Below, in pieces: positions 3,224-41,700 of a DNA stretch of 64,000 bases. The stretch spans positions 18,213,513 to 18,277,512 of the forward strand of contig CAIIXF020000004.1 in NCBI GenBank assembly GCA_903813345.2. Direction: 5' to 3'. A program made the translations under genes and the position numbers. The notes under the pieces are model-generated. The model was not told the DNA's origin. It ran no database searches and worked only from the letters and a program-made list of their open reading frames with translations. The stretch is from Owenia fusiformis. Its lineage: Eukaryota; Annelida; Polychaeta; Sabellida; Oweniidae. Positions within the stretch are counted from its first letter, which is position 1; each line of letters opens with the position of its first letter.

Positions 3224-5006
3224 GTGAGTGGTGTTTTCCCGATTAATGCAATATGTATATGTGATCGGTCTATATGCAAGAGTTATTTGTGGTCTAGACA
3301 TTATAGTTTTTTTGTTTATGCTTGTGAAAATTACGTTTGCAATGTAAATCGAAAGATATTTTACAGTATTTGTGAGCGATAATAGAAAAATCTTAATTTT
3401 TAGCTTTTGTTTACATTTTTGAATTTTGTATTTTCCACTCAATTGCTAATCCTGTGAACTTATACAGTTTTGTCATGTATTTTTTGATTTTTATTTATTA
3501 TTTTCACTTTTCAACTTTCTAATAAAGCATACACAGCACCATAGGGTACCGTGAGCATATATGGCACAATGCTCGAATGGTACTGTACAGTATCATTCTC
3601 TTGATTTACCAAATTTGCAGTCACAACGCTTCTTTCTATATCTATTCTGTAATGTTGCCTTTACTCACTTGGCATAATTTCATTTTGCTTTTATACCATT
3701 GATACCATTAATTGAAGTATTGTTCTTTGTCATTGCTTTAATGGTCAGTATACCAAGTATAATCAAGAAAAGCTTGTACAATGAACAACGAAATTTGGAA
3801 ACAAGTACTATAGATTTGCTTTCAGACACTGAACCGATTGACCTAGATAATAGCGATGCGTCTTCTTTGGTCAACTGCTCAGTTGTTTGTGGGTTTTCAA
3901 TGTAGCTCTATAATGCAATTTGAAGATGAGTACTTTTATTGCATCTATTATGTTGCAGTTTGTAGTGCAGTAAGATTGGAATGAAAGTGTCGAAAGTTGA
4001 ATGAAACTATTTTTTCCAATATGGCGACGAGTCAACTGATCACGTGACCTTCTCTTCTGGAATATTTTCTCACTTTTCGATCATCGTTTTCATCATGCTA
4101 TGAATCAGTACAATGAAAAAAACATCTGTTATCTTAAGATAGAGATCAATCGTTTCTGATAATCTTTTCTGTACTCCCGTATGGGAATAGTAATGAATAT
4201 ATTGATAGAAAAATAGGTGTGAAAATCCCCATGTCAAACCTATGGCGGAAAACAAGGAAGTATGAATTTGTTCCTCTGCGAACTGCATCATGGGAAATAT
4301 TTTGACCTTATAAGGAAAATCTTTTGCGTCTCCTCTTATGAAGAGGGAACCACAAATACGAGAATTCAATGAGATCCACCACATGTAGCGATGTGTGAAC
4401 AGCTACTGATGGGATGAAAGGGCTTGATCCATATAAAAATAATCTCAAGTTCTAACATTTTTGCTGAACAGAACCTTGGGCTTTTGAAAGCCCATGACAG
4501 AACTCATTTAGAAACAAATGTACAGATTCAGAAAGAGCTCAAAAGAAAGCACAGGTGGTTCACTAGAATTTCTCACAACATGTTAAATAAATGAAAACAA
4601 CAGGCAATTAATGGAAATCATAAATTTAACATTTAACAACCGTTGAAAATCGCCTGTTGCCTGCTTCTAATGAAGCCCCTGAAGCATGAAGAATCTTATT
4701 CTATTCATACATGTTACTGACTTCTTTTTTATTTTAAGTCAGCTCAGAATGACATCAAATTTTCAGTTACAACGTATAGCTGAGCTGAGTTTTTAATTTT
4801 CTCAGCTTTACATCTGAACATGACACAAGATTCTCACAGTCTTATAAGTTCTTCTACATAATGAAGATGCCAGAGGACTGACAGGATTCAGCTCACTTTT
4901 TAATTTCTCAGCTAAACAAGTAACATGACATCAGATTTTCACTGTCTGAAGTGCTAAGTTCTTCTATGTAATGGAGTCTCAGTGAGAGAGTGTGTTGATG
5001 TTTTAG
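3224..5006 (+). other. Putative first intron of STAG
   Basis: No coding exon was seen. The intron holds one member of a ~610-bp sequence pair (3718-4340, second copy at 39713-40332) and, around 4740-4980, two imperfect copies of a ~130-bp segment containing AGCTGAG-like and TTCTTCTA words. The intron ends in GTGTTGATGTTTTAG directly before the STAG start codon. Confidence 0.4.
3718..4340. repeat. Dispersed ~610-bp repeat, copy 1
   Basis: This segment aligns nearly end to end with 39713-40332. Shared landmarks in order are GTCAGTATACCA, GACCTAGATAATAGCGA, TCAGTTGTTTGTGGGTTTTC, AATATGGCGAC near a CACGTGAC E-box, and GCATCATGGGAAATATTTTG ending in GACCTTATAAGGAAAA. The copies differ by many substitutions and small indels. 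Neither keeps a shared long reading frame, so it is treated as a non-coding dispersed repeat or an old segmental copy. Confidence 0.7.
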
Positions 5007-8000
5007 ATGCCAGGAGTGACAAGGCCACGTAGATTATCCAGAGACGCTGCTAGCAAAAGCAACATAGCTGATACAATGGAGTCAATAATCCAGCAACAGG
5101 CAGAGGGAGAGATGGACTCAGAGATGGAACACATCATGGAGCCAACCAGTGAACTTGGAGTGTAAGTTCATATGTTTTCAAGGAGATTTTAATGAACTGT
5201 GACATATTTAATTCATGTTCTACATTGACTTGAATTGAAGATGCATGTGTAATCATATTTCATTTCAAGTGGGCTAGTATGAAGAAGAGAATCAGAATTT
5301 TAAATGTTGCAGACTATTTATCTCATGTGACCTGTGTTCAACCAATCACAGAATGGAAACATAAAAATGAGATAATATTACCAACAAATATGTTACTTCT
5401 TCAGGCCAGAACAAGAGGACAGTGACTTTGAAGAGCCAAAGGCTGCAGGTGCAAAGAGAAAGAGACAGAAGAAAGATGAAACAATGGTGAGTTGTCTTAG
5501 CAACTGTATCAATCTTGGACTTTACCTGATTGTCCATTTTCACAGTGAATTCTTTGATATCACATGATTGATGAAAAATTAATATGCTCATTCATTCACA
5601 GGGCAATTACCTGATCTTGCCCAGTGTGAATAGTTGACCACATCTGGCTAATCTGGTCACAACATTTAAGTTTTGGCATAAAAAGCTTTGAGTGAATAAT
5701 GATTCTAGTACTACTCTTATCAGTTCATTGATGATCAATGCTTTGTTTTAGGTAAAGAAGGCTCGTAAGGTGCCAGAGGCTGGTGGAGGCAGAGGGAGGA
5801 AGAAGAAACAGATAGACCCCAATGCTGAAGATCAGGATGGCAGTCTGTTTGAGGTTGTCAAGTCTGGCAAGACTGCTCTACAGGTAAGTCTAATATGCTT
5901 ACACTTGTGCATATTAAGGCAACTTACTCATTACTAGATCCACTCCTCGTCCTAACTTACTCCAATTCTTGTCTGGTCAGTTGTACACAATAACATTATT
6001 AACCTGTTAAAATATTCTGCAAAATGCTATCTTGTTGTTGATTTCAAGCAGAGTTATAACTGCTTTTTTAAATAGTTGTATACAAGCATTTACTTTTCAA
6101 TGATTTTATCGTGGTTAGATATTGTTACATTGGACAGTGTTGGGCAGTTGGTGCTTGGCATATGTAACAAATGGCAGGTGGTGCCATTAATGCATTGTAT
6201 TTATTTTAGGCTGTGGTAGATGACTGGATAGAGGGCTATAAATCAGATAGGGACACAGCTCTGCTTGAGTTGATCCAGTTCTTCATCCAGTGTTCAGGTT
6301 GCAAGGGCAGAATCACACCACACATGTACGCTAATATGGAGCACGCTGAGATCATCAGGAAAATGACAGAAGAGTTTGATGAGGTAAGTTTCATGAGACA
6401 TGTTTCATGACTGGAAAAAACATCGAAAATTTGAAATGTTGAAGCTCCTGCAAGTTGTTACAGAGGTATATGTTGTAATTTTAGGACAGTGGAGACTACC
6501 CTCTCATCATGACTGGGGCACCTTGGAAGAAGTTCAAGACAAGTTTCTGTGAGTTTGTCCAAGTATTGGTGCGCCAGTGTCAGTACAGCATCATATACGA
6601 CCAGTACATGATGGACAATGTCATATCCCTCCTCACAGGTCTCACTGACTCTCAGGTCCGTGCCTTCAGACATACCAGTACATTGGCAGGTAAGTGAAGC
6701 CAAGGGACATTTTAACAGTTTGCTCCAGTTGGTAGAGATACCTGAAAAAGTTAGCCCAGGTAGTCCGAACCATAAGACAAGAACTAAATTTACCAGTTAA
6801 TTTAGGAACTTAAGATTATGATTCTGTACCAGGCGTAACTTCATGCTCATATTCATTATTTTAACATTATAGCCATGAAGTTGATGACAGCTCTGGTAGA
6901 TGTTGCTCTGAATCTGAGCATAAACCTTGACAACACACAGCGACAGTATGAAGCTGAGAGGCAGAAGAACCAAAGCAAGAGGGCCAGTGAGAGATTGGAA
7001 ATGCTCATGGCAAAAAGACAAGAGGTAAACCAAAGGGTATTCTCTTCACAGTAAAACGTAAAGGAAAATGAGATAGTGAAAGACTAGAAAATGCAAAGGC
7101 CAAAATGTGGATTGAGTACAAAATGAGAAGTCAAAATATATTTTAATGTATTATATGCTTAATACTGAAAACATTTTTCAGTTTTCCAATCATTTTATAT
7201 TGTAAGTAGACTTTTGCACATCCTTGTATGCCTCGTCTCCCGCAATCCAGGTAGAAATGGGCAGATATTATATATCTCTCAAGATAAACACTATATCCAA
7301 AACCTCCCAGTACATAATCCTCATGCATTTACAGTTAGAGGAAAACCAAGAGGAGATCCGCAACATGCTGACATACATCTTCAAGGGAGTATTTGTCCAC
7401 AGGTACAGGGACACCCAGGCAGAGATCAGGAACATCTGCATGTCAGAAATAGGTGTATGGATGAAGAGATATCCAAACATGTTCCTAGATGATAGTTATC
7501 TAAAGTATGTGGGCTGGACCATGTATGATAGGGTAGGTGAAACTTAATTGCTATGTTTTAGTATTAAAAGGAGTTATTTCACAAGTGATATTACACATTT
7601 CATGTGTTTGATGCCCCTGTTTGTATTTTGTAGACTGGAGATGTACGCAGTGGTTGTTTGAAGTGTTTGATGCCCCTGTATGAGGCGGAGGAATTGGCTC
7701 CTAAACTGGAACTCTTTACAAACAGATTCAAGGTACAATTTTAGGAAAAACATATTTCTCTGTACAAATGTTATTGTAAAACATCCTTCAATTCTTCATT
7801 GTTCGTATATGCATGCAAGCTTAGGAATTCTCATATTCTTGGTATAAGGGCTAATTTTGCCTGATTTAATTGTCCAAATGTTTCTTATCAATCTTTAGAT
7901 GGACATCTTGTACTTATGCCTATTGTACATCTCATTTCCAGGCACGTCTTGTAGAGATGACACTTGACAAAGAATATGATGTTGCTGTTGCTGCCGTCAA

Positions 8001-11000
8001 GCTCTCAACTGCCATCTTGAAGTATAATGAACAGGTCCTCACAGACAAAGATTGTGAGAATGTATATGAGTTAGTCTACTCATCACATCGACAGGTAAAT
8101 GCTTAACTAAACTGAATAAACAAATACTATGTCATAATGAAACTATTAATCAAGGTCATAAAAATACACCCTGTCTGCATATTTGTCACGCATAGGCACT
8201 GTTACCCGTTTAGCATTCATTGATCATCTTTCATTAGCATAAAAGCTCAGTTTATATTTCAAAGTATGTGATTGAATAATATAAAATTCTGGTGGTTAAT
8301 ATTTCCTGTATATTTGATATTTCCATAATAAATCTCTCATTCTCAATGCATTGTTTCATGTATATTTCCACTAAACCACCAATGTAATTGGTTTGTGCCT
8401 GAGTATGAAACTGTCCTTAATCATAAGGGTCGAAATATTACTGCTGGGTGATTATCCATTTAACATTACATTTTCTTCTATTGCCAGGTTGCCCAGTCTG
8501 CAGGTGAGTTCCTGAATGTGAAACTATTCCAGAAAGATGAAGAATCCATGAAGAATGTGAAGACAAAGAAAGGCAAGAAGAGGAGTGTCAACACTCCATT
8601 GGTGAGAGATCTTGTACAGTTCTTCATAGAGAGTGAGGTAAGCTAAATATTAACTACATACATACTGTATCCCAGACTGAAGTATGCAAAATAAGACACA
8701 TGAAAATTTATATATAGCAATATTAGACCCTAGCATACTAACATAGAATTAGACTCTCCAACTTGGGATAGGGACTTTTGATTAGGAATTTTGACTTGTA
8801 AAGTAGAAATCAAATGTCTGTTTTTATGTCGTCACTACAAATATAATTGTAGTCTCCAACTTTTTTTGGGATGGTGTTCCGCGTTGACAAATTAGAGTTT
8901 GAGACATTTTGCATGTTTCTTACTTAATGCCTTGTTTTATTTTGGTAAACCTTTATTTACAATTTCAGTAAATATTGATTTTCTGTTAATGAATAATGAA
9001 CCAATCACATGGTACCATTTCATATTTCAGCTTCATGAACATGGTGCTTACCTGGTTGACTCAATGTTTGAGGTGAATGATATGATGAGAGACTGGGAGT
9101 GCATGACTGACTTACTCATAGAGGAACCTGGTAGAGGAGAAGAGGTATGTACCCTTAATGTGTTCATTATCCACAGCAAAGGAGGTGTCTACCCAAGATA
9201 CCTTGTAATTATTAATAGAATATGCACAGTATGGGAATATACTTTAGAATTTCTACACAAGTGAGTTGTCCCAGTTTCATTAACCTCAATTGAATTCCTT
9301 TTTTTCTGACCACCTCTAACATTTACATTTTAGCAAAGTTTAGACTAGTTCATTATAAAATCTGGTTCCTGATAATGTAATATTAATTGCATGTGCCTAG
9401 GTGATGGATGACAGACAGGAGTCTAGTCTTATAGAGCTAATGGTATGTGCTGTCAAACAAGCTGCCACTGGCGAGAGCCCTGTAGGCAGGGGACCAAATA
9501 AAAAGGTATTAACTTTGGTAAAATATTTTTAGTATTGATTTTTTACTTTTAATTTCTTGATTAATTTTAACTTGACGGTGCATGCTCAAAATGATAACAA
9601 ATACAACAATAAAAACTTTTATGTTTAGTTCAAGTGATGCTGGTATCTGCCATTATTACAATGTATTGAAAAGCCATGTTTGCCTCTGTTTCAGTTGTCA
9701 TCAAGGGAGAATCGCCAAGTGATGGAAGACAAAACCAAACTAACAGAGCACTTTATTGTGACACTTCCACAACTCTTAGCTAAGGTATGATTACTGAAGA
9801 AATCTTTAAATATGTTGTTACCTTTGTTCAATACCAGCTGTGATGAAGTCAAACACTGACATCATTCAGAGAGTAATTTCAAGACTGACAGTATTTTGTT
9901 GTGAAAAATGAATTAAACAACTTAACACATCATTCATTTCATTCAGAAACTCTATTCCCCAAATTGAAAGTGACCCTAATAAGACAAAAGATGTATTTCT
10001 TATATTACAGTACAGTGCAGATCCTGAGAAAGTAGCTAACCTGTTGACGATTCCTCAGCACTTTGATCTTGAGATCTACACAACCAGTAGACAGGAGAAA
10101 CACCTTGACACTCTACTAAGGCAGATACAAGACATTATAGAGAAACACACAGATACTGAGGTTGGTTATTGTGCTTAAACTCTCTCTCGTTAATGAAAAG
10201 TGACACAAGAGATCCATGTAAACTGCAGTTGATTTGAAAACAATATTTATATCTGTCATTGATTTATTTGTTTATTTGAGTTAAAATTATCTCACATAGA
10301 CACCATATATGTGTGGTAGGATAATGTAACTTGATATCTGAAGGTAGAAACAGATCCTGGTATTAACCTGACAGGAGGTGGTATCTTTATCCTGGCTAGG
10401 ACCATAGGCAGTTCAAGCCAGCACAGGCCTTTCATTGAGTTAGTAGCACTCTTGTAGACACCTCTCTGGTGTACTGGGTAACATAGCTAGCTCCTTTTGC
10501 CACATGCTGGGATTGATTCCAAGACCTTGGCATTAGCAGTCTAGCATGTTTACCTTACACCACGGAGGCAAAAACAAAGGTCATGTATCGTTGAAATACA
10601 CATTTTTGGTAATTTTAACTTGTAGGTACTTGAGGTGTGTTCCAAATGCCTTGAGGCGTTTTGTCAGGAAGAGTATGCGATTTCTGGCAAGTGTCAGATC
10701 ACACGCAGCACATTGATTGATGCACAGGTTGAGAAGTTCAGAGAAGCTTTCCAAGATTTCTTTGCTGAGGTGAGAATCTTACATTTACTAAAGAGAGTAC
10801 AGTTTCAGAGATATACTCAATTCCTTTTGAGATATCATTTCTTGATATATGTCTGTGAAAAATGATTTGTGCATTTGTTTTGAGATAATACAATGTAATA
10901 AAATAGATGATCACATTGGCCGGTAAAATGTAAACACTAGTAAACACTGTTCAATGCTATGTACCAGTTATGATGATAATGTGATTTATAGTGTTTGGTG

Positions 11001-14000
11001 TCTTTATTGTAGGTGCTTGAATGCGATAATGAATCCTACATGATGTTGAAGGATTGCTAGACTTTGTTACTTTGTGTGATATATTAGAGCATAGTTTGGG
11101 ATATTAGCTGTTTGTTTTCTACCAACATGTTCCTTTATGACTTTTTGGCATTTTTGCTTATATATTTGTATATACGAGTATATTCTCCCCACAGGGGGAA
11201 GAGCCTGATGAGGATGAGGCGTATGCTCTCCATGCAGCACTGAAGCGTGTCTATGCAATGTGGGGCTGCCATGACTTGACCAATTGGAAGCTATGGGACT
11301 CTCTTTTCCATATTGTACGTATGGGCAATGAGCACCCTGAATTGCCAGCTGAGGTAAGTACATATCTAAAAGTAAATGACAACCATAGTATTCATATTTT
11401 TCATTTACATGTATTTAAAAGCATTTATGAACTCCAGTTCTATTCTTCCCATGTAAAGCATGTGTCCATTTTCTCATTTCATTTCAGTGTTTGGAAATTA
11501 TGAATTTGCAATATGAAGAAATAAAGAAATATGAATACATGTCTATGAAATATGAAAAATATGAAAAATCAATGATCTAATTAGGTTGTAATGTGTTTTG
11601 AAACTCGAGCTTTCGAGTTATAAAATACAAACAGTAATGAAATCAAACAAGAATGAACAAAGATCATGTATATATTTGAAATTTAACTAATTGAGCATGA
11701 ATGTGATCTTGCAGTTGATGGTGAAAGCTTTGGCATGTTGTTCCCTGGCAGTTGTATGGAGTCTGCAACAGCTCAATGAGAATGAACCCAGCAAGGTGAG
11801 TACATTAAATGATAACCCTGCAAGATGGGTGCATTATATAGGTGTAATTAAAAGGTGTACTTTGAGTCAGTCTCTCTCTTGATTTATAATTATTTCTTGT
11901 ATATAGTGTATTATTTGGTTGTATTTTAAGAAACTGGAATGTTTCAGAAATGATTGTTGTACTTTGAATGTTTCAGGAGGCAATGTTAGGGGTGACGGAA
12001 CAGGGGCAGTATGCAGTGTTTCAGAAATGATTGATGTTCTTAAATGTTTCAGGAGGCAATGTTAGGGGTGAAGGAACACTTGAAGGAGATGATGAATGCA
12101 TGTATGGAGGCTCTCTTCCACACCCAGGATAGAGTCAATGAGGAGGTAATAGAATATCAACTGTAGAAGCCAAACTTTATCACTAGCATTTTTGATTTAA
12201 GGATTTAAGCCCTTGATTCAGTGCATTGCAGACTGAATCATTCCTAAAAAGGTGTAATTTCAACCTTTGCACGAGATGCGCAGCATCGAGTGTTAAGTAT
12301 CGAAAATAGCACCTGAGTGGATTAAACCAGCCACAATGCATTGAGTCTTGGGCTTAAATTCTTTTCACACATTGCAAAATATTTTCTAAAAAAATCACCT
12401 TAAAGATACAAAATCACCAAAAAAACATTTTCTCAACAAAACTTTTTCAGCGAAACAATTTTAATCTATAGAGTCAACTTGTCACTTTGACAACCATTCA
12501 ATGAATGACCTTGGGTGGTTAGTTGGTTATATAATAAAGTGCAGTTATATGAAATACTGTGCTTGGACTGGCTGTAATCGGACACACCTTCCTTAGCTAT
12601 GCATGAATACATTATTGTTGCAATGATTTCCAATTTGTGGTTGATTTTATGTTATTGTAATGGTTATATCTATATTATTGTCATATTTACAAATTGAAGA
12701 CCTAAGCCGAAGCATTGCTTTTCTGTTTTCCTTCACAATGATCTAATATTATGTATACTATGTTTGTAGGCATTCATCACCATCTGTGATTTGCTAATTG
12801 TGTTCAGCAAGCACATGGGGAACCCACTGTTTGCCCTAATATTATGTATACTATGTTGTTTGTAGGCATTCATCACCATCTGTGATTTGCTGATTGTGTT
12901 CAGTAAGCACATGGGGAACCCATTGTTTGCCCTAATATTATGTATACTATGTTGTTTGTAGGCATTCATCACCATCTGTGATTTGCTGATTGTGTTCAGT
13001 AAGCACATGGGGAACCCACTGTTTGCCCTAATATTATGTCTACTATGTTGTTTGTAGGCATTCATCACCATCTGTGATTTGCTGATTGTGTTCAGCAAGC
13101 ACATGGGGAACCCACTGTTTGCCCTAATATTATGTATACTATGTTGTTTGTAGGCATTCATTACCATCTGTGATTTGCTGATTGTGTTCAGCAAGCACAT
13201 GGGGAACCCACTGTTTGCCCTAATATTATGTATACTATGTTGTTTGTAGGCATTCATTACCATCTGTGACTTGTTGATTGTGTTCAGCAAGCACATGGGG
13301 AACCCACTGTTTGCCCTAATATTATGTATACTATGTTGTTTGTAGGCATTCATCACCATCTGTGACTTGTTGATTGTGTTCAGCAAGCACATGGGGAACC
13401 CACTGTTTGCCCTAATATTATGTATACTATGTTGTTTGTAGGCATTCATCACCATCTGTGATTTGCTGATTGTGTTCAGCAAGCACATGGGGAACCCACT
13501 GTTTGCCCTAATATTATGTATACTATGTTGTTTGTAGGCATTCATTACCATCTGTGATTTGCTGATTGTGTTCAGCAAGCACATGGGGAACCCACTGTTT
13601 GCCCTAATATTATGTATACTATGTTGTTTGTAGGCATTCATCACCATCTGTGATTTGCTGATTGTGTTCAGCAAGCACATGGGGAACCCACTGTTTGCCC
13701 TAATATTATGTATACTATGTTGTTTGTAGGCATTCATTACCATCTGTGACTTGTTGATTGTGTTCAGCAAGCACATGGGGAACCCACTGTTTGCTCCACT
13801 CATCTTTGAACCAGACAAGCACATGCAGGCTAAACTATCTGGCTTTGTCAATGAGAAGGTCTTTATAGATGATGATGATGGTGAGAGGCTCCATTCATTT
13901 CCAAATTACCAATAACTCTTTATGTCTTTACTGCCCTCTGTGCACTGGTTGATTAAGTAATTTATAAGGAACTGTGATAGGACTTAAATCTCCATCTATA

Positions 14001-17000
14001 TAGGATTTACAGAATTCAAAAATGGAGAAGTTAAATGATTTTTATATTAATTCCATTTTAAAGTGCAAACATTCTCTTGTTCAATTTGTTAAAAATAAAT
14101 TTTGAATTAAATAATTTTGATTTGTATGTGAGACTTGAGAAAAAATAAAATAATTACAACCTACTATTAGAAGAAAGTTAAATGAATGATTCATTTCTTT
14201 TATTTCAGACGAGACTGATGAGAACATTAAGATTGAAGAGCTCCATAAACGTCGTAACTTCCTTGCCTCATTCTGCAAATTGGTCATCTACAACGTGATC
14301 AGCATCAAGGCTGCCACAGACATGTTCAAACAATACATGAAGGTATGCTCTTCGAATGTCAGCACTTGTACTTCCTTTTTATTACTTCAGTTTATGTATC
14401 TTTGTTGAAGAAAATTAAATAAATGTAATGCTTCAGTCACATTTTATATATGGCAACTATATGGCGGCCATAGCTTCCAAAAGAAAAATATGCAGCATAA
14501 AGTACAGGATAAGCAGTACAATGTACAGTAGATTTTGTATATCGATTTTGTGAAGCCATACTCCCGTCGTGAGCAAATGTGACTGAGGCTTAACTAGTGA
14601 ACTGCAACTTGTGTGTACATTCCAAGATTGGTAAGTAACCATGTTATTTGTATTGCAGTACTATATACAATTATCATTCTGATTGCAGTACTACAATGAT
14701 TATGGTGACATCATCAAGGCAACATTAAGCAAATCCAGAGAAATCAACAAAGTGGCTACAGCTAAAACTATGGCCAAGGGTCTCACAAATGTAAGTTCAC
14801 AGTCTTCCATAATGACTTTCTCTATCTAATCAACTGCTTATCCCAGAGCATTTACAATGTACAGCAGGTACAGTATATATGGTTCATAGAATATATTTTT
14901 CTCATGCATACAGGTTTTTATCTACTTTCGTGCGAAAACAAAATGACTTTATCTATAATTACGAAAAACAAAATTAGTTATTTGGATGTCTAATTAACTA
15001 TTCTAAGCCCACAATTCCTTGCTTGATGATTGTATGTAATGATCAATATTTCATCAATGTTTTCTCAATCCAGGACTATTCTCTGAAATAGGTATGATGT
15101 ATATCTTTAAAAAAAGACGATTTATATAAGGATTCCAGAATAACCCATGAATATGTTTCAGCTAAGGTACAGTGTTTGGTTTAATGTATCTTAAATTTCA
15201 AAATTGCTTGTTTATATTGTGCTAGGCATTCAGTGAAGTGAAACTAGAACAGAACAATGTGGATAGATCTTCAGAGGGCTTTATACAGATCAAAGAGTTG
15301 GCCAGAAGGTTTGCATTGTCATTTGGATTAGACCAGATTAAGAACAGAGAAGCCGTGGCTGCAATGCACAAGTAAGTCACCCATGGTCATCAATCAAGCA
15401 GTTCTATTTTACTTACATAAAGTGTGAACACTGAATACTGTACATCTAACCATGTGTCACCTTTATTTGGACAATTCATCACCTGGCAAGTGATTTTTAT
15501 TGAGAAAATCACCCTTAAATTGAATATTTTGATTTTAAAGTATAAAATTACAAACATTAATTTGGTAATACATGTGTTAACTGTCAGTAGAGTGGCTTTT
15601 TCTAACAAGAATCTCATGAAATGTTTTATGAATGACCATTACCATATATAGACAAACTCTATCTCTTGATATTTTTCTGTATAACTTGCTAGTAGGCCAG
15701 ATTTCATTGTCAGTTACATGACTACTACATTCTACACTTGCAGGGAGGGTATCCTGTTTGCTTTGAACCCTATGGAGAATCCTGATGACCCTAACGGAGC
15801 TCCACCTAATGTTGCATTCCTAGAGATCCTCACAGAGTTCTGTAGCAGACTCATGAAACAGGACAAGAAGACAGTGTAAGTGAAACATCTTAAATCCAGA
15901 CCCTTAGTTTACTTAATTTGCCAAAAATACTGGAAATTACTGACTTTGGCCATCTTACATCCAGTATAATTTGTTACCATTTTCTTATTGTATTCTACAT
16001 GCCACTACATTAGATTATATTATATTATGTCACTTGCTTATTTTGACTTCTAGTGTGACATACCTTGACAAGCATCTCTCACATGGTATCCCAGCATCTA
16101 GGTCAGATGACTGGCTGCCACTGCTCACATACAGGAACAGCCTGGTACAGGGAGAGGAAGAGGAGACAGTCATACCTCCAGGACCTGGCGCCCTCTATAA
16201 GAACAAAGTGGGCAGACCTAAGGGTGGAAGGCACAAGAAGAGAGGAGCAGCTGTACCAGAGGGTGAGTCTTTCATACAAACATTCCCTTTAACATACTTC
16301 CCTGTTTATTATAGATTAACGTCCATTGTAAAGTAGTTGAGTAGGGCTAGCTTTGTACCTGCTAACTCACCATTCTATGGATAGATATTTTTCACTTAGC
16401 TGAGAAAATTATGTTTCATAGCAGTACAATATTATCATCTTTGGCTCTTTTGCCTCACCTATTCAAACTTTATTTAATAAGACTTTGTGTATATTTGCAG
16501 CCAGTGGATTCCAGACACCTGCAGGTCGAATGGGAGGCCCCCAGACCTCAACAGCCATTAAGAGGCCTAGGCATGATGAGGAGTCCGTAGGATCAGATAA
16601 TCTATCAGAACAAGGCTCAGAAAGAGACTTCCAAGACTCGTAAGTAGCTTCATGAGGAAAGTTTATTCATATACGAATTCACTCAGACTTTGTTTTCAGA
16701 ATATTATTCATTGAATCATTGGCATGGTATTTCAGGTAATTTATGAAAAGTTTTTCCAAAATATTTCTTGGGATTACTAAAAGAATTGTTATTAGACAGT
16801 TTTGTAGTCGATATACTTTTGTTCCAGGACTATGAATATATCTCATATATCGCAAGCCTCTTGGTTGGCCCAGAAACAACAGGAATCTCTCAGACAACAA
16901 CAACAACAACAGAGCTATGGAAGAGTCACACGTGGCAGGTAAGAACAACAGGCACTTTTTAGTTTATTTGCAAAACATCTCAACACTTGATCCAGAGATA

Positions 17001-18677
17001 GCTTGTATTTGCAAGTGCAACTAACACATGTCGACTACCAGATTAACCTACTTTTTCATGACCAACTCATTTAAATATGAATGGAATAGTGGCAGGTACT
17101 ATTCATATTTAAATGAGTTTCCAGTAAAATAGCAGGTTAATCCGGTGGTCGACAGGCGTTAGTTGCATTTGCAAATACAAGCTAATTTACATTCAGTTTT
17201 TACCATTAAATGGCCAGGAATAAGTTAATGTGGAGTTAGTTAGTTGCATTATTGTATTCACTTCCTTTGTTGATTCCTGTTTTTCTTAATTATAAATACA
17301 TCTGTGTTATATTAATTTTTGCTGCCTAGTGGAGAATTTGTTCAACCCTTGATTCCACATCAGTACAGGTAAGATGACTGTTGTAATATGAATGATGATG
17401 TTGTTTTATGTACACATACATGTCTTATGTTGTAATATCTTATGCTTATATATGTCTATATGTCAGTGTTGTTATATGTACACACTACACAACTTTTTCA
17501 ATAATAAGTGTTGTAATGCCAATGCTTTATTGTATACCTATACAGGTAAATGTTGTATTATGAACGAGGATTGAAGTTACCAATGTGATTATTCTAAAAC
17601 TAAAAGTTTTTATCAAGCCTGAGATTTCATCAGTATATTGTTTGATGGATTTGATCAATATACAGGATTTCAAAAGAAATTAATTTGTTGTTTATATTCA
17701 TGCTTGAGTGAAGAAGACTACCTGGTCCTGGGGCAATTATTTCATCCAGAAATGTTAAATCAATCAAAATTAAAAAGTTCATTTATTGGGATCAAAAAGA
17801 GGTATATTTAAAAAAATGATATTAACCCCTCATGAGAACAACTTATTGTACTGTTATACATCTGTATGTGTATCCGTAGGCGTATGTGTGAATGCGTGAA
17901 TACAAGAACTATAGGAAGTATCACAACCTCTGTGTTCACCTTTAAAAATTAAATGGTTTAGTTGTTCAAAATGTGCTGTTAATACTGTCTAGGGATGAGG
18001 TCCCACTGTGGTTATCTCTTATTGGCTCACATTATATTTACAGACCCCCTGCTCCACCAGGCCAGATGTCTATGATGTCACCTGGCAGTAATGTTAGTAT
18101 AGGATCATTTGAGAGTCCACAGTCTATACCCCCACAGAGACCCCGCTTTGATGAACCATCGTCACACATTGTCTCAGTAAGTAAATATGTTCAACACTGT
18201 CATTATATTTTACTTGTAATGTGAAAACATGTCGTCCCATTTTACTTGTAAATGTGAAAACCTGACAACCTATTTTACTTGTAAATGTGAAAACATGTAA
18301 AATTTGTGGAATTTTACTTGCAAATAAGTGGTATTATTCCTAGCAGCTTCAAACTGACCCATTCTGCAAGTCATCTGAGTACTTCAAGAGCCTTTCAGAA
18401 ATATTTTAAAAAATATATCAAGATTTATCTTTTTTGGTGTAGAATTATTTCTCCAATCATGGACAAATATATGAACACCTTCTGCCCAAATAAATGACTG
18501 CCAATATGCATAAATTGGACTTTTATCTCACCATGCATTGCCTTGGTATCTATATATCATCAGTCCACAATTTCAAGAATTGTTTACAGAAATAAACTAT
18601 TGTTTATATGAGTACAAATTGTTGAATATAATTCTAATTTTGCATTTCAGTCGGAGGTAGATATGCAACACTTTTGA
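5007..18677 (+). CDS. STAG: STAG/SA cohesin subunit (stromal antigen, Scc3 orthologue), complete
   Basis: Encodes the HEAT-repeat cohesin subunit that binds RAD21/SCC1 and helps load and hold the ring on chromatin. Coding exons: 5007-5161, 5405-5486, 5752-5883, 6210-6383, 6485-6689, 6873-7024, 7335-7532, 7634-7732, 7942-8094, 8488-8637, 9031-9144, 9401-9505, 9695-9784, 10011-10160, 10626-10769, 11195-11353, 11715-11795, 12053-12145, 13730-13880, 14209-14342, 14689-14790, 15226-15371, 15744-15875, 16054-16262, 16501-16639, 16828-16938, 17330-17368, 18044-18176, 18651-18677. All joints are GT-AG and in phase, giving 1252 residues, as in human STAG1/2. A basic/acidic N-terminus (to ~125) precedes the STAG domain (~180-300). 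The conserved SCD follows (~301-400; [34 protein letters not shown]). Later signatures include [34 protein letters not shown] and [16 protein letters not shown]. The tail is diverged, with a short poly-Gln. Start chosen as the first ATG after the acceptor. Confidence 0.96.
11941..12072 (+). repeat. 78-bp tandem duplication spanning the acceptor of STAG exon 18
   Basis: The segment GTTTCAGAAATGATTG to AATGTTTCAG plus the exon start GAGGCAATGTTAGGGGTGA occurs twice, at 11941 and 12019. The upstream acceptor (exon would start at 11977) leads after 17 codons to TGA, so only the downstream acceptor at 12053 gives the conserved protein. The upstream copy is a decoy. Confidence 0.8.
12206..12358. 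repeat. Small fold-back element in STAG intron 18
   Basis: The left arm TTTAAGCCCTTGATTCAGTG then CATTGCAGACTG is an imperfect reverse complement of the right arm, which ends near 12358 in CAATGCATTGAGTCTTGGGC then TTAAA. No coding capacity; probably a small MITE. Confidence 0.5.
12742..13794 (+). repeat. 11-copy, 96-bp tandem array of a splice acceptor plus the start of STAG exon 19
   Basis: Exon-like starts occur every 96 bases at 12770, 12866, 12962, 13058, 13154, 13250, 13346, 13442, 13538, 13634 and 13730. Each unit carries about 30 bases of intron end (CTAATATTATGTATACTATG then TTGTTTGTAG) and the first 65-66 bases of exon 19, encoding [20 protein letters not shown]. Only the last copy, at 13730, continues into the exon body ([10 protein letters not shown] and on). 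In all others the exon frame runs into the TAG of the next acceptor after 31 codons. Copies differ at a few third-position-like sites (ATCACC/ATTACC, GATTTGCTG/GACTTGTTG, CAGTAAG/CAGCAAG), and the first has a 3-base shorter intron part. Confidence 0.95.
16999..17184. mobile_element. Fold-back MITE-like element in STAG intron
   Basis: The ends TAGCTTGTATTTGCAAGTGC and GCATTTGCAAATACAAGCTA are inverted, and complementarity continues inward (AACTAAC, GTCGAC, AGATTAACCT, ACTCATTTAAATATGAAT) to a loop near 17085-17100. The whole 186 bases could fold into one long hairpin. A TA dinucleotide at each tip would suit a Tc1/mariner-type origin, but this is only suggestive. Confidence 0.7.
18205..18302. 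repeat. Short tandem repeat in STAG intron 28
   Basis: Three imperfect copies of a ~36-base unit, TTTTACTTGTAAATGTGAAA followed by ACATG or ACCTG, lie just downstream of exon 28. No function inferred. Confidence 0.6.
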
Positions 18678-19947: not shown

Positions 19948-22693
19948 TAACTAGATTTGTGAAATTGAACAAGTTCAATTTAAGACTCCAGATTTATTTG
20001 ACCTAGATAGATCAGTAAAGAGCTGAGTAAGTAACTGAGTAATTAGCTGAGTAAGTACCTTAGTAGTAGTTGAGTAAGTAGCTGAGTAAGTAACTGAGTA
20101 AAAAGCTGAGTAGGTAGCTGAGTAAGTAGCTGAGTAAGTACCTGAGTTAGTAGCTGAGTAAGTTGCTAAGGAAGTAATAACTAATTAAGTAAATGAGTAA
20201 GTAGTCAAATAAGTAGCTGAGTAGGTAGAGAGGTAAAGTAGGGTATGCAGGAATTTTTGAAATCCAGATCCAGATTCCTGAGGAAATTCTACCCCTAATT
20301 CATAACTCATACTTTAAAATTGGAAAACTTTTTATTTTGACCTACATTTCGGACACCATATCTCAAAAGTGGGTCAAAAAACTTATTGACGGCAAAATGT
20401 TAACATTATTAGCACACTCTTTGCTACAAGTTTACAAAATTTCGGAGAATATCATTGAAGTGTAGTGTCAGAATCGCAAAATAAAAAAAACTATGAATTT
20501 GACCTAGATTTTGAACTAGGTATTTTGGTGTCCAAACTTTGAAGGAAAGTAGCTTTTGAGGTCCCCTTCTTCTATGGGCTTTCATTATGTTTAGCTGTAC
20601 TCATTCTATATCTCGTATTTTTATACTTCAAAAAATTATTCGGTCCCATTGATTTAACATTGGGCACCAAATTTAGCGATTTTTGAGATTTCAAAACGCC
20701 ATAACTTCCGAACAGGAGGTCGAATCAAAATTTGATTTACAGATTCGGATTCCTGATAAAATTCTACCCCTTATTCATAACTCATACGTTACATTTGAAG
20801 ATTTTTTTATTTTGACCTACTTTTGGGACACCATATCTCAAAAGTGGGTCAAAATACTTTTTGACGGCAAAAGGCTAACACTATTAGCACACTCTTGGCT
20901 ACATGTATACAAAATTTTAAAGCAAATCATTTAAATATAGTGTCAGAATCGCAAAAATAAGGGAAAACTATAAATTTGACCTAGATTTTGACCTAGGCAT
21001 TTTGGTGTCCAAATTTTGGAGCTAAGTAGTCTTCGAGGTCCCCTTCTTTAATAGGCTTTCATTATATTAAGCTGTACTCAGTCTATATCTCGTATTTTAC
21101 ACTTCAAAAAATCTTTTTTTCCCATTGACATGACATGGGGCAGCAAATTCAGCGATTTTTGAGCTTTCAAAACACCATAACTTCCGAACAGGAGGTCGAA
21201 TCAAAATTTGATTTACAGATTCGGATTCCTGATAAAATTCTACCCCTTATTCATAACTCATACGTTACATTTGAAGATTTTTTTATTTTGACCTACTTTT
21301 GGGACACCATATCTCAAAAGTGGGTCAAAATACTTTTTGACGGCAAAAGGCTAACACTATTAGCACACTCTTGGCTACATGTATACACAATTTCGAAGAA
21401 TATAATTAAAGTGTAGTGTCAGAATCGCAAAAATAAGGAAAAGCTTTGAATTTGACCTAGATTTTGACCTAGGCATTTTGTTGTCCAAATTTTCAAGATT
21501 AGAAGGTTTTGAGGTCCCCTTCTTTTATGGGCTTCCATTATGTTTAGCTGTACTTAGTCTATATCTCGTATTTTACACTTCAAAAAAATATTTTTTCCCA
21601 TTGACATAACATGGGGCACCAAATTTAGCGATTTTTGAGCTTTCAAAACGCCATAACTTCCGAACCGGAAGTCGGATCGAAATTTGGTTTGCAGATTTGG
21701 ATTCCAGAGAAAATTCTATCCTTAATTCATAGCTCATACGTTAAATTTGGAAATTTTTTATTTTGACCTACTTTTCGGACACGCCATAACTTCCAAACCG
21801 GAAGTCGGATCGAAATTTGGTTTGCAGATTCGGATTCCTGAGAAAATTCTATACTTAAATCATAACTCAAACGTCAAATTTTGAGACTTTTTTATTTTGA
21901 CCTACTTTTCGGACACCATATCTCAAAAATGGGGCAAAATACTTTTTGACGGCAAAAGGCTTACACTATTAGCAGACTCTTAGCTACATGTATACAAAAT
22001 TTCGAAGAATATAATAAATCTGTTGTGTCAGAATCGCAAAAATAAGGAAAAACTTTGAATTTGACCTAGATTTTGACCTAGGCATTTTGGTGTCCAAATT
22101 TTGAAGCTAGATGGCTTATGAGGTCCCCTTCTTTTAAAAGCTTTCATTATATTTAGCTGAACTCAGTCTATATTTCGTATTTTTTACTTCAAAAAAATCT
22201 TTTTTCCCATTGACTTAACATGGGCACCAAATTTAGCGATTTTTGAGCTTTCAAAACGCCATAACTTCCGAACGGGAAGTCGGATCAAAATTTGGTTTGC
22301 AGATTCGGATTCCTGAGAAAATTCTACCTTTATTTCATAGCTCATATGTTAAATTTGGAGAACTTTTTGGTTTTGACCTACTTTCAGGACGCCATATCTC
22401 AAAATCGCTAAGAGCAATCAAAAAACGGATGGCACACTCTCGATTTGTTTTTTTCTAAGCTACATGTAGAAACTAAGATGAAGTAGTTCCGACAAACAAC
22501 AACGAAGATAATTGACAGAATGTTGATTTGACCTTGATTTGACCTAGTTCTTGACCCTTGACCTAGATAAAAATTTGACCTAATTTCCCATCATCCCAGG
22601 TACTGCCCCTAGTTGATCATGTAAGCAGCTTAAAGTAAATTCTTTTAGTTGGTGAGAAATCTGGGAAGGAGGAAGATTCTGAAAGAATAATAA
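19948..22693. repeat. ~2.75-kb tandem repeat unit, left copy
   Basis: Starts with TAACTAGATTTGTGAAATTG, followed by a simple-repeat zone of GAGTAAGTAGCT-like words (to ~20235). It then has ~475-bp subrepeats, each opening with CATAACTTCCGAAC and running through GACCTACTTTTCGGACACC and a GACCTAGATTTTGACCTAGG box. Subrepeat starts lie near 20697, 21175, 21650, 21785 (a 135-bp partial) and 22258. A gap of ~110 bases near 20250 is present relative to the right copy. The short frames inside are not conserved as protein and are not called as genes. Confidence 0.9.
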
Positions 22694-25535
22694 TAACTAG
22701 ATTTGTGAAATTGAACAAGTTCAATTTAAGACTCCAGATTTATTTGACCTAGATAGATCAGTAAAGAGCTGAGTAAGTAACTGAGTAATTAGCTGAGTAA
22801 GTACCTTAGTAGTAGTTGAGTAAGTAGCTGAGTAAGTAACTGAGTAAAAAGCTGAGTAGGTAGCTGAGTAAGTAGCTGAGTAAGTACCTGAGTTAGTAGC
22901 TGAGTAAGTTGCTAAGGAAGTAATAACTAATTAAGTAATTGAGTAAGTAGTCAAATAAGTAGCTGAGTAGGTAGAGAGGTAAAGTAGGGTATGCAGGAAT
23001 TTTTGAAAGTATATTTGATCAATCTGCATCGTGAATACTGGCAAGTGTGAATTTCAAACTTCAAAATGGTGTAGAATCTAAACCGGGGGTCAGATTGCAA
23101 TTTTAATTTCAGATCCAGATTCCTTAGGAAATTCTACCCCTAATTCATAACTCATACTTTAAAATTGGAGAACTTTTTATTTTGACCTACATTTCGGACA
23201 CCATATCTCAAAAGTGGGTCAAAAAACTTATTGACGGCAAAATGTTAACATTATTAGCACACTCTTTGCTACAAGTTTACAAAATTTCGGAGAATATCAT
23301 TGAAGTGTAGTGTCAGAATCGCAAAATAAAAAAAACTATGAATTTGACCTAGATTTTGAACTAGGTATTTTGGTGTCCAAACTTTGAAGGAAAGTAGCTT
23401 TTGAGGTCCCCTTCTTCTATGGGCTTTCATTATGTTTAGCTGTACTCATTCTATATCTCGTATTTTTATACTTCAAAAAATTATTCGGTCCCATTGATTT
23501 AACATGGGGCACCAAATTTAGCGATTTTTGAGATTACAAAACGCCATAACTTCAAAACAAGTAGTCGGATCGAAATTTGGTTTGCAGATCTAGATTTCTG
23601 AGAAAATTCTACCCTTAATTCATAACTCATACGTTAAATTTGGAAAACTTTTAACTTTGGCCTATTTTTCGGACACCATATCTCAAAAGTGGGTCAAAAT
23701 ACTTTCTGACGGCAAAACGCTAACACTATTAGCATACTCTTTGCTACCTGTATACAAAATTTTAAAGCATATCATTTAAATATAGTGTCAGAATCACAAA
23801 AATAAGGGAAAACTATAAATTTGACCTAGATTTTGACCTAGGCATTTTGGTGTCCAAATTTTGGAGCTAAGTAGCCTTCGAGGTCCCCTTCTTTAATAGG
23901 CTTTCATTATATTAAGCTGTACTCAGTCTATATCTCGTATTTTACACTTCAAAAAAATCTTTTTTCCCATTGACATAACATGGGGCAGCAAATTTAGCGA
24001 TTTTTGAGCTTTCAAAACACCATAACTTCCGAACAGGAGGTCGAATCAAAATTTGATTTGCAGATTCGGATTCCTGATAAAATTCTACCCCTTATTCATA
24101 ACTCATACGTTACATTTGAAGATTTTTTTATTTTGACCTACTTTTGGGACACCATATCTCAAAAGTGGGTCAAAATACTTTTTGACGGCAAAAGGCTAAC
24201 ACTATTAGCACACTCTTGGCTACAAGTATACACAATTTCGAAGAATATAATTAAAGTGTAGTGTCAGAATCGCAAAAATAAGGAAAAGCTTTGAATTTGA
24301 CCTAGATTTTGACCTAGGCATTTTGTTGTCCAAATTTTCAAAATTAGAAGGTTTTGAGGTCCCCTTCTTTTATGGGCTTCCATTATGTTTAGCGGTACTT
24401 AGTCTATATCTCGTATTTTACACTTCAAAAAAATATTTTTTCCCATTTACATAACATGGGGCACCAAATTTAGCGATATTTGAGCTTTTAAAACGCCATA
24501 ACTTCCGAACCGGAAGTCGGATCGAAATTTGGTTTGCAGATTTGGATTCCAGAGAAAATTTTATCCTTAATTCATAGCTCATACGTTAAATTTGGAAACT
24601 TTTTATTTTGACCTACTTTTCGGACACGCCATAACTTCCAAACCGGAAGTCGGATTGAAATTTGGTTTGCAGATTCGGATTCCTGAGAAAATTCTATACT
24701 TAATTCATAACTCAAACGTCAAATTTTGAGACTTTTTTATTTTGACCTACTTTTCGGACACCATATCTCAAAAATGGGGCAAAATACTTTCTGACGGCAA
24801 AAGGCTAACACTATTAGCAGACTCTTAGCTACATGTATACAAAATTTCGAAGAATATAATTAATCTGTTGTGTCAGAATCGCAAAAATAAGGAAAAACTT
24901 TGAATTTGACCTAGATTTTGACCTAGGCATTTTGGTGTCCAAATTTTGAAGCTAGATGGCTTATGAGGTCCCCTTCTTTTAAAAGCTTTCATTATATTTA
25001 GCTGAACTCAGTCTATATTTCGTATTTTTCACTTCAAAAAAATCTTTTTTCCCATTGACTTAACATGGGCACCAAATTTAGCGATTTTTGAGCTTTCAAA
25101 ACCCCATAACTTCCGAACAGGAAGTCGGATCAAAATTTGGTTTGCAGATTCGGATTCCTGAGAAAATTCTACCCTTATTTCATAGCTCATATGTTAAATT
25201 TGGAGAACTTTTTGGTTTTGACCTACTTTCAGGACGCCATATCTCAAAATCGCTAAGAGTAATCAAAAAACGGATGGCACACTCTCGATTTGTTTTTTTC
25301 TAAGCTACATGTTGAAAGTAAGATGAAGTAGTTACGACAAACAACAACGAAGATAATTGACAGAATGTTGATTTGACCTTGATTTGACCTAGTTCTTGAC
25401 CCTTGACCTAGATAAAAATTTGACCTAATTTCCCATCATCCCAGGAACTGCCCCTAGTTGATCATGTAAGCAGCTTAAAGTAAATTCTTTTAGTTGGTGA
25501 GAAATCTGGGAAGGAGGAAGATTCTGAAAGAATAA
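22694..25535. repeat. ~2.75-kb tandem repeat unit, right copy
   Basis: A near-identical direct repeat of 19948-22693 with the same order: the GAGTAAGTAGCT zone, subrepeats near 23540, 24020, 24495, 24630 and 25102, and the tail TAATTTCCCATCATCCCAGG to GGAGGAAGATTCTGAAAGAA. It retains the ~110 bases lost from the left copy (near 23010-23120). It is followed directly by an (AAT)n run. Confidence 0.9.
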
Positions 25536-38700: not shown

Positions 38701-41700
38701 AATATATACATTTGCATCATCAACATATAATGTGCCAAATTAAAACAAGTGAAAACTGAATCCCAAATTCTCACCTCCTCAGTAGAAAAATCATTATAAC
38801 CTATAATTATAAGAATTTTTAAGGTTATGAAAACCAATTGTATTGTATGTATAAGTGGAATTCTTCTTTGGAAAAGGATCATACTTAAAAGGAAAAACTT
38901 CATTAAACATGTTAAACCACCTATGTTCCCAGTCCTCATTTCATCCAAACAGCAGTACCTCAAATAATGCTAATGCACTCCCAATTTTTCATCAGTTTTT
39001 CATTTTCAGATCATTACACTGAATCAAATGATTTAACATTGTTTTCTCACTAACATTTCATTAGTAAAACCTGTATGTGCAAAGTGATGAATTCTTGGTT
39101 GTCATAACAACTAATGATTGCTTGCTTTCCTTTTATTTCTCCTTTATAATTCAACTTGTTGGTTGCAAAATATGGCTAGTTATCAGTTATGTTGACTGTG
39201 ACACATTTTGTAACTGACAGGACTCTTTATAGTAATTCTTTATTTCTCTAAACTAATGCCACAAATTCTCTTACATTTCCCACCCTTAAACAAAGTTAAG
39301 ATCTTTATGAGGGGTATTCTATCACATGGAGTCATCGATGAATATTTGCATGTGTACATATGTTAAACCTCTGCTAGAATACATATTGTTTCATTCAGTC
39401 CATGCATGTGCACAGATCCATGTTAAGCGCATGTTAAATATTTTGATTTGTTCATGTATATCATTCCTTGCATGGTACGAGGGGTAATTCAAAAGTTATG
39501 ATCAGAATTCTCCATTTCGCTGTTCGCTCTTTGAATCAGAACGTTCGCATATATGGTGCATATATGTACTCAAAAAGGACAAAATTTGATTGGTCAATAT
39601 TTTTCAACGATGCATTTCGTGTAGCTATTTGTGAGACCCGAAAGTTCTAAATCAAATTAATTACGCAATTTTGTTTTTACACCCGCAAGCTAAATAAAAA
39701 AATGACACCATCGGAATTCTTCTTCTTTGTCATTGAATTAATAGTCAGTATACCAGATTTAATCAATAAAAGATTATACAATTAACAACAAAATTCGGAA
39801 ACGAGTATGTAAGATTTGCTTTCAAACCACTAAACTTGACCTAGATAATAGCGACGTGTCTTCTTTGGTCAAATGCTCAGTTGTTTGTGGGTTTTCAACG
39901 TAACTCTATAATGTAATATGAAGATGAGTACTTTTATTCAGTTGTTGCATCGATGTTACAGTTTGTAGTGCGGTAATATTGGCATGAACGTGTTGAAAGT
40001 CGAATGGAATTGCTTTTTCCAATATGGCGACTAGTCACGTGACTTCTTCTCTTCCGGAATATACTCCCATTTTCAATCATTGTTTTCACCCCGTTAGGAG
40101 CCAATAAAATGAAAAAAAATATATGTTATATAAAGATTATTAAAAGACTAATTGTTTCTGATAGTTTGTTTTCTCCGATCGCATGGAGATTCGATCGAAA
40201 ATATCGCTTGAAAAATGGGTATGAAAATCCCCATGTTAAACCAACGGGGAAAAACAAGGTAGAAAAATTTTGTTCCCCCGCGAACTGCATCATGGGAAAT
40301 ATTTTGACCTTATAAGGAAAAACTTTCGCGCCATCTTTATTAGAGATTCAATACTACCGAATCCGCGATTTTAAGAATTGTATAGGCAAACTCAACTTAG
40401 TTTATATATAAAATTATGCACGTTGACTATAATGTGACATATATCTTACACGAGGATCCATGGGCTGATTGAATTATTTATGCAACATGGATTGATGGCC
40501 ATTTTACTCAGTTCAGCAATCTTAGTACTATATATGCATGTCTTTCAATGATTTGGAGCTTTTACAATTGGCAAAACTTACTTAACTAGTAGAAACTTAA
40601 AATCCTCATCTATTTACTTATCACAAGGTTTCGATATCATATAACACATACTTTTCTAACTCTTTAAGCCTGTTTTACACAATGTATTGCTTCTTAATTC
40701 AAGAATCTAAATGTTCTTGGTTTAACAGATAAGATATTACTTGATTACGTGAAAATATGTATGAATGAAATTAATGGATCAAAGTATCAAAGAAACACAG
40801 AACAATAATGTTAAAACTGCATGGGAATGGGGATTGTTAAAGGAAATGTTGTAGCGTATTTTTTGAGTTTTAATTCAAAATTCTGATGTTCAATTTTTAG
40901 GAGGAAAAAGATTTGTATCTTCAGAATGATATCTTAAGTTTGTTAGCGCCACCATGGTAACCCTGTGTTGCCATGGTAACAGCAAGCTTGGGTAAGCCTT
41001 ACTCATCAATAACCTTAACATAATAACCCCTGGGTGCATTTCTAAGATTTTTATGCTGTACATTGGTTTTATGGTTTAATGATTATTATTATGTCACCAC
41101 CAAAAGTGGTGACATATTGTTATGGTCTCCGTTTTTTTGCGACGGCGGTTGGTGGTTGGCGTCCGGCGTCTGGCGTCCGGCGTCTGGCGTCCGGCGTCCG
41201 GCGTCTGTAACAATTTCTTACAACTTCCTATAACTTAACAAATACTGTTTAGACTGACTTCAATTTTTTTCTAAATCATCTACATGTTCTCAGAAGTTCA
41301 AATATGACTTTAGATTTGACATTTGACCTTCAATGACCTTCTCAAGGTCAAAAAAGGTCAAAAAGGTCTGTTTTCAACTTGTTTCAAATTGACTAATTTT
41401 TTTTTTCAAAATCATCTACGTGTTCTCAGAAATTCAAATCTGACTTAAGATTTTACTTAAGATTTGACATTTGACCTTCAATGACCTTCTCAAGGTCAAA
41501 AAAGGTCAAAAAGGTCTGTTTTCAACTTGTTTCAAATTGACTAAATTTTTTTTCAAAATCATCTACGTGTTCTCAGAAATTCAAATCTGACTTAAGATTT
41601 TACTTAAGATTTGACATTTGACCTTCAATGACCTTCTCAATGTCAAAAAAGGTCAAAAAGGTCTATTTTCAACTTGCTTCAAATTGAATAAATTTTTTTT

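Follow-up and report, generated by a model that had tools for sequence, protein, structure and literature searches.

The STAG gene and other repeats of the window

The window analysed here, the whole stretch of 64,000 nucleotides of DNA, has a G+C content of 34.4% and carries on its plus strand a predicted STAG gene (cohesin subunit SA/SCC3), with a coding region from 5007 to 18677 that comprises 29 exons and 1252 aa. Exon borders were read by eye and then checked by splice dinucleotides and by translation, which gave no internal stop across the 1252 aa. In the PDB, human SA-1 (1272 bits) and SA-2 (1252 bits) matched a 1043-aa part of the protein almost end to end, and the whole protein contained the Pfam domains STAG, SCD and HEAT_SCC3-SA (PF08514, PF21581 and PF24571), which bears out the name given to the gene in an earlier note on this DNA. 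Exon 18 (12053–12145, plus strand) is followed by a donor GT at 12146, and exon 19 proper (13730–13880, plus strand, 151 nt) by a donor GT at 13881. The intron between them (intron 18, 12146–13729) is the longest of the model at 1584 nt, and the intron downstream of exon 19 measures 328 nt. The donor at 12146, the acceptor at 13730 and the numbering of exon 19 in the same note are consistent with the open 29-exon model.

Rfam gave no match within the window. Beyond the gene, two stretches that resemble each other lie about 2.8 kb from one another (20014–25249), each with an array of a 12-bp unit (17.2 copies, consensus AGCTGAGTAAGT) and with one repeat of 476 bp and one of 133 bp, and tandem arrays were found at 41246–42498 (unit of about 148 bp, rich in TGACCTT/AAGGTCA) and at 43375–43822 (28-bp unit, 13.9 copies). 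The region from 59845 to 62948 is likely a non-LTR retroelement, with ORFs for an endonuclease (PF14529) and a reverse transcriptase (PF00078) and a third ORF that had no Pfam match.

Duplicated acceptors at exons 19 and 18

Upstream of the body of exon 19 lies an array of 11 copies (12743–13794, plus strand), the unit of which consists of the 3′ end of the intron (30 nt) followed by the front of exon 19 (66 nt). Tandem Repeats Finder gave a period of 96, 11.0 copies and 97% matches, and direct reading placed the first exon bases every 96 nt from 12770 to 13730. Copies 2–11 are 96 nt long; copy 1, a detail that had previously been left unmentioned, has 93 nt, with 27 instead of 30 nt of intron. 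The repeated segment holds CTAAT, which by its consensus we take to be a candidate branch site, then a T-containing tract and AG, and after these the exon 19 front; its copies follow one another head to tail on the upstream side of the exon. In copies 1–10 the exon part measures 66 nt; the last copy has T for C at nt 66 and continues into the exon 19 body, which in the gene model is joined by this copy only, exon 19 proper being the last array copy plus the exon body. The front of exon 19 is repeated in its own upstream intron beyond chance: 40 nt at the exon start scored 75 against the last 400 nt of that intron, whereas the 28 other upstream stretches gave no more than 25 and 60 shuffles no more than 22. 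When three 96-nt stretches of the unit were folded as RNA, none was notably more stable than its shuffles (z of −0.92, −0.46 and −0.68).

Head-to-tail repeats of minisatellite size that span an exon–intron boundary, a single authentic copy on the exon body with the others intronic, and splice signals retained in the repeats are all found here. By this anatomy, as far as it can be read from the sequence, the array would belong to the family of 'mirages', the minisatellite-like duplications of intron–exon boundaries that excerpts of PMC3087553 describe for the amphioxus globin genes BflGb6 and BflGb9.

The first ten copies provide ten decoy acceptors (12770–13699, plus strand), with first exon bases at 12770, 12866, 12962, 13058, 13154, 13250, 13346, 13442, 13538 and 13634. 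AG is retained in 11 of 11 copies. With a weight matrix built from the acceptors of the STAG model minus those of exons 1, 18 and 19, nine decoys scored 6.87–7.09 and that of copy 1 scored 11.04, compared with 7.09 for the true site; the median of the 28 model acceptors, each left out in turn, was 6.96. The decoy acceptors are not decayed, since they score like the true site or higher, and score alone is no mark of a real site, since 8 of 359 other intronic AG sites also scored at least as high as the true exon 19 acceptor. Each decoy has an in-frame TAG at the acceptor of the next copy. Translation of the ten decoys joined to exon 18 gave 22 normal codons, nine intron codons and the TAG, with the stop at codon 844 in 10 of 10 cases, a premature stop of the kind that marks a poison exon; the tails were alike except for an I to L change for acceptor 3, which lies in the intron part of copy 4. 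The 96-bp unit present 11 times, its single junction with the exon body, the ten nearly identical upstream acceptors and the insertion of 31 codons and a TAG had all been put forward in the earlier note, and they hold by repeat detection and direct reading, by the gene model, by the matrix scores and by translation, respectively.

Exons made via the decoys would measure 247–1111 nt, compared with the normal 151 nt. The best donor-like sites within the array (TCAGTAAGC, copies 2 and 3) scored 1.43, compared with 2.81–12.85 for the 28 model donors; these weak GTAAGC sites (12903–12904 in copy 2, likewise 12999 in copy 3, plus strand) come from a silent AGC>AGT change. Splicing of the units as mini-exons was rejected on these donor scores, and the 30 nt between units are too short for an intron.

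A two-copy duplication of an acceptor and exon front was also found at the neighbouring exon 18 (11940–12078, plus strand; copies at 11940–12002 and 12017–12078). Its copies are 92% identical over 63 aligned positions and both carry TTTCAG and the front of exon 18, and three Markov shuffles produced no local repeat at the threshold of this duplication. The decoy at this exon (first base 11977) has an acceptor score of 7.61, equal to that of the true site, leads to a stop at codon 799 and carries a nonsynonymous change (K to T). Compared with their own upstream introns, the acceptor windows of exons 18 and 19 scored 68 and 80, and at most 21 and 25, respectively, in 28 other introns. There are thus two clear boundary duplications in STAG, at exons 18 and 19.

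Over all exons, the comparison of the exon front with its own upstream intron gave p = 5e-5 (0.0004 without exon 19), and the control comparison of the exon end with its own downstream intron gave p = 0.02 both with and without exon 19. For the acceptor window, p was 0.00015 for all exons, 0.003 without exon 19, 0.09 without exons 18 and 19 and 0.095 without exons 8, 18 and 19; the donor window gave 0.009, 0.008, 0.017 and 0.029 for the same four sets, and two mixed controls gave 0.36–0.77. Since the acceptor value without exons 18 and 19 (0.09) stands against 0.017 for donors, acceptors are not distinct from donors elsewhere in the gene, and a gene-wide habit of acceptor copying, which without these two exons did no better than the donor control, is not claimed. 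Small excesses over every other intron were seen at exons 5, 8, 10 and 27 for the exon front and at exons 1, 21 and 27 for the acceptor window. In a placement test that counted the array as one locus, dropped the repeat at 2582–2678 as lying outside and scored the loci at exons 1 and 8 as misses, two of the six local duplications of the gene region fell on exon fronts, a borderline result (P = 0.042).

Other local duplications were observed in and beside the gene. Immediately upstream of the STAG start codon, an imperfect tandem duplication of about 107 bp (4783–4976, 76%) shows CTCAG acceptor-like ends and an imperfect additional copy of the AGATGCC start region. At 7598–7682, a 26-nt copy (88%) of an internal piece of exon 8 lies in the intron, 59 nt upstream. 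At 14649–14700, ATTGCAGTACTA stands at the acceptor of exon 21, and its second occurrence, about 30 nt upstream, coincides with an acceptor-like site that has a matrix score of 9.91.

If a set share of transcripts were spliced to the decoys, stopped at codon 844 and degraded, copy number would set the level of STAG. This decoy-acceptor rheostat, raised in the earlier note, can draw on ten acceptors that score like the true site or higher, on the identical stop that follows from all of them, on the second decoy at exon 18 with its own early stop, and on the tendency of 3′ splice sites, according to excerpts of PMC9225289, to favour the upstream one. The array features behind the proposal stand, but the regulation would be conjecture. 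Amphioxus mirages of the same anatomy reportedly do not interfere with regular splicing (PMC3087553 and PMC3902484, both as excerpted), which speaks against it, and we consider such a device improbable.

Silent variation among the copies

Between the 11 copies, the exon part varies at seven of its 66 positions (9, 21, 25, 27, 39, 58 and 66). All seven variable sites are synonymous in the STAG frame, every copy encoding one and the same 22-aa peptide, compared with 3, 0, 5, 1 and 2 of the seven in the other five frames. The chance of obtaining 7 of 7 synonymous sites was 2e-5 to 8e-4 with transition weights of 1, 2, 4 and 100, and 5e-4 to 6e-3 when the variants were cautiously counted as five independent events, positions 21 and 25 always co-varying and position 66 sitting at the junction. 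The intron parts showed one substitution (copy 4) in addition to the 3-nt difference of copy 1. A minus-strand ORF of 390 aa (12733–13905), open through the whole array, was rejected as a gene; it exists because the 96-nt unit has no stop in that frame, in which five of the seven variants are silent.

Variants at positions 9 and 21/25 were present in all four combinations, a pattern that suggests exchange, or repeated mutation, inside the array units. Private variants in copies 1 and 11, and also in copies 2 and 4, show that some change came after copying. The same differences bear on whether the array was produced by the assembly, that is, whether there are fewer real copies and either the reads of two haplotypes or a short array were joined or over-extended. 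Copies 4-5-6 and 8/10-9-11 have a similar order of variant types, as such a product might, and the draft assembly of the BflGb6 mirage is described as aberrant in excerpts of PMC3087553. However, nine distinct sequences are present among the 11 copies, and a 3-nt difference of its own sets copy 1 apart, which makes an assembly product unlikely, and a multi-copy array would still be likely even if the copy number were wrong.

We simulated arrays in which coding selection acted on the last copy only and copies turned over by unequal exchange, using a crude single-lineage model with autocorrelated samples. Three exchange rates yielded 822, 305 and 20 sampled arrays with exactly seven variable exon sites; in none of these 1147 were all seven silent, and 5 of 5804 arrays with 5–9 variable exon sites were without a nonsynonymous one. 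A 'polar' variant of the simulation yielded mean numbers of variable sites of 86–214, far above that of the array, and was uninformative. Within this model, the results suggest that the copies acquired their silent differences when the sequences still functioned as exons, for example as alleles of a polymorphic population that were later taken up by a recent amplification. As neutral turnover failed to generate the silent-only pattern, the copies probably derive from functional alleles and were made recently.

The same pattern could arise if the decoy exon fronts were themselves under coding selection, for instance if a truncated 843-aa STAG were made and used. The restriction of the 7 of 7 silent variants to the STAG frame, the failure of the neutral-decoy model and the nearly identical tail from all ten decoys would agree with this. 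However, ten redundant copies could hardly each be maintained by selection, the tail variant in copy 4 replaces I with L, the decoy at exon 18 has a K to T change, and a stop upstream of later exon junctions should lead to decay. We think that selection on the decoys is less likely than a recent amplification of functional alleles, and used decoy products seem to us very unlikely indeed. Silent-only differences in decoy exons are likewise nothing that a dosage device would need, and a copy-number-tuned rheostat of cohesin dose with a small version at exon 18, which in its strongest form would have its decoy fronts kept coding by selection, is highly doubtful.

Probable tolerance of the array and comparison with known boundary repeats

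We regard the STAG array as a likely mirage, a minisatellite placed across an intron–exon border, which would be tolerated and for which no regulatory role need be assumed. Its copies would exchange with one another, and unequal exchange would recently have enlarged the array and brought functional alleles into it, which we propose as the reason why the exon parts differ only silently. A neutral minisatellite, offered in the earlier note beside the rheostat, comes nearest to this explanation, and the anatomy and the poison outcome described there were confirmed; yet 'neutral' alone is incomplete, because the exon parts differ only silently.

Under the mirage reading, the spliceosome would, by exon definition, mostly recognize the last acceptor and the donor of exon 19 as a pair across the 151-nt exon. 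According to excerpts of PMC9225289, splice sites in competition are usually paired across the exon when the introns on either side are long (over 250 nt), and with introns of 1584 and 328 nt around exon 19 such pairing would favour the last acceptor. For 3′ splice sites, the same excerpts hold that exon definition merely lessens a general upstream preference, so that some leakage into the decoys is to be expected. The decoys speak against use of the last acceptor in that they are no weaker than the true site, copy 1 being higher (11.04 vs 7.09); we infer this use from the gene model. Mis-splicing into decoys would lead to the common early stop and from there to nonsense-mediated decay, and the array would cost little. 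Nonsense-mediated decay is an established pathway for clearing such transcripts. On balance, the array appears to be tolerated rather than used.

Boundary minisatellites are known from amphioxus, and what is new here is a large mirage-type array in a cohesin gene. In experiments of the 1980s, duplicate splice sites were reportedly set in competition, and the STAG array would be a natural counterpart of these, located in a gene whose mis-splicing should be costly. It raises testable questions on the protection of a true acceptor by exon definition against identical upstream competitors and on the turnover of such arrays, and from its silent-only variation the amplification could be dated against allelic polymorphism. 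The G+C content of Branchiostoma is about 41%, and the 34.4% of the window is lower. Should the host be an animal other than an amphioxus, boundary minisatellites of this type would have a wider distribution than that reported in the excerpted amphioxus papers, the published cases in these excerpts being all in cephalochordates (PMC3087553 and PMC3902484). No description of an array of this kind in STAG turned up in a literature search, a weak result as the gene name was not a search term; nor was any mirage beyond the cases cited here recognized among the papers listed. A 285-aa piece of STAG and the DNA pattern of the unit, run against viral contigs rather than animal genomes, gave one pattern-matching stretch and no confirmed one, and a 160-aa piece had no match among plasmids, which, not being animal genomes, carry little weight.

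A minisatellite also provides multiple splice donor sites in the interferon-inducible gene 6-16/IFI6 (G1P3). Both IFI6 and STAG multiply a splice site, donors rather than acceptors and with a short unit in IFI6. In human segmental-duplication genes, as in STAG, minisatellites have expanded at exon–intron boundaries and can carry splice sites, but those variable internal tandem repeats are linked with novel introns as well as with repeat-retaining alternative transcripts, whereas the STAG array implies no new intron (PMC2812944, as excerpted). The potato RdRp gene likewise has a tandem genomic duplication tied to gene structure; there a new intron arose, while in STAG decoy acceptors lie inside an existing intron (excerpts of PMC4974935).

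The BflGb6 mirage resembles the STAG array in combining the intron 3′ end with the exon front, in having splice signals in many of its repeats and in joining one authentic copy to the exon, and its homogenization inside the cluster may have a counterpart in the exchange, or repeated mutation, suggested by the STAG variant combinations (PMC3087553, in the available sections). The same sections state that the splice signals of mirage repeats could serve as cryptic sites, and propose mirages as a source of new introns, citing Adh3 and other loci. Excerpts of PMC3902484 add PGBD5, whose copy number differs between assemblies, Adh and troponin C, and the amphioxus huntingtin paper, in its excerpted text, touches on tandem repeats only in passing. 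The characters of the class, as excerpted, include copy-number polymorphism, somatic instability and a cluster-wide concerted evolution that leaves boundary copies apart. The 11 copies in STAG compare, by the figures in these excerpts, with 6 and 3 in BflGb6 and up to 7 in one assembly in PGBD5, and the 96-bp unit of STAG compares with 150–160 bp in BflGb6, 10–72 bp in Adh3 and 60 and 108 bp in PGBD5. Compared with the amphioxus mirages as described there, the STAG array is distinguished by its position in a cohesin gene, by exon parts that differ only silently and by a two-copy version at the neighbouring exon.
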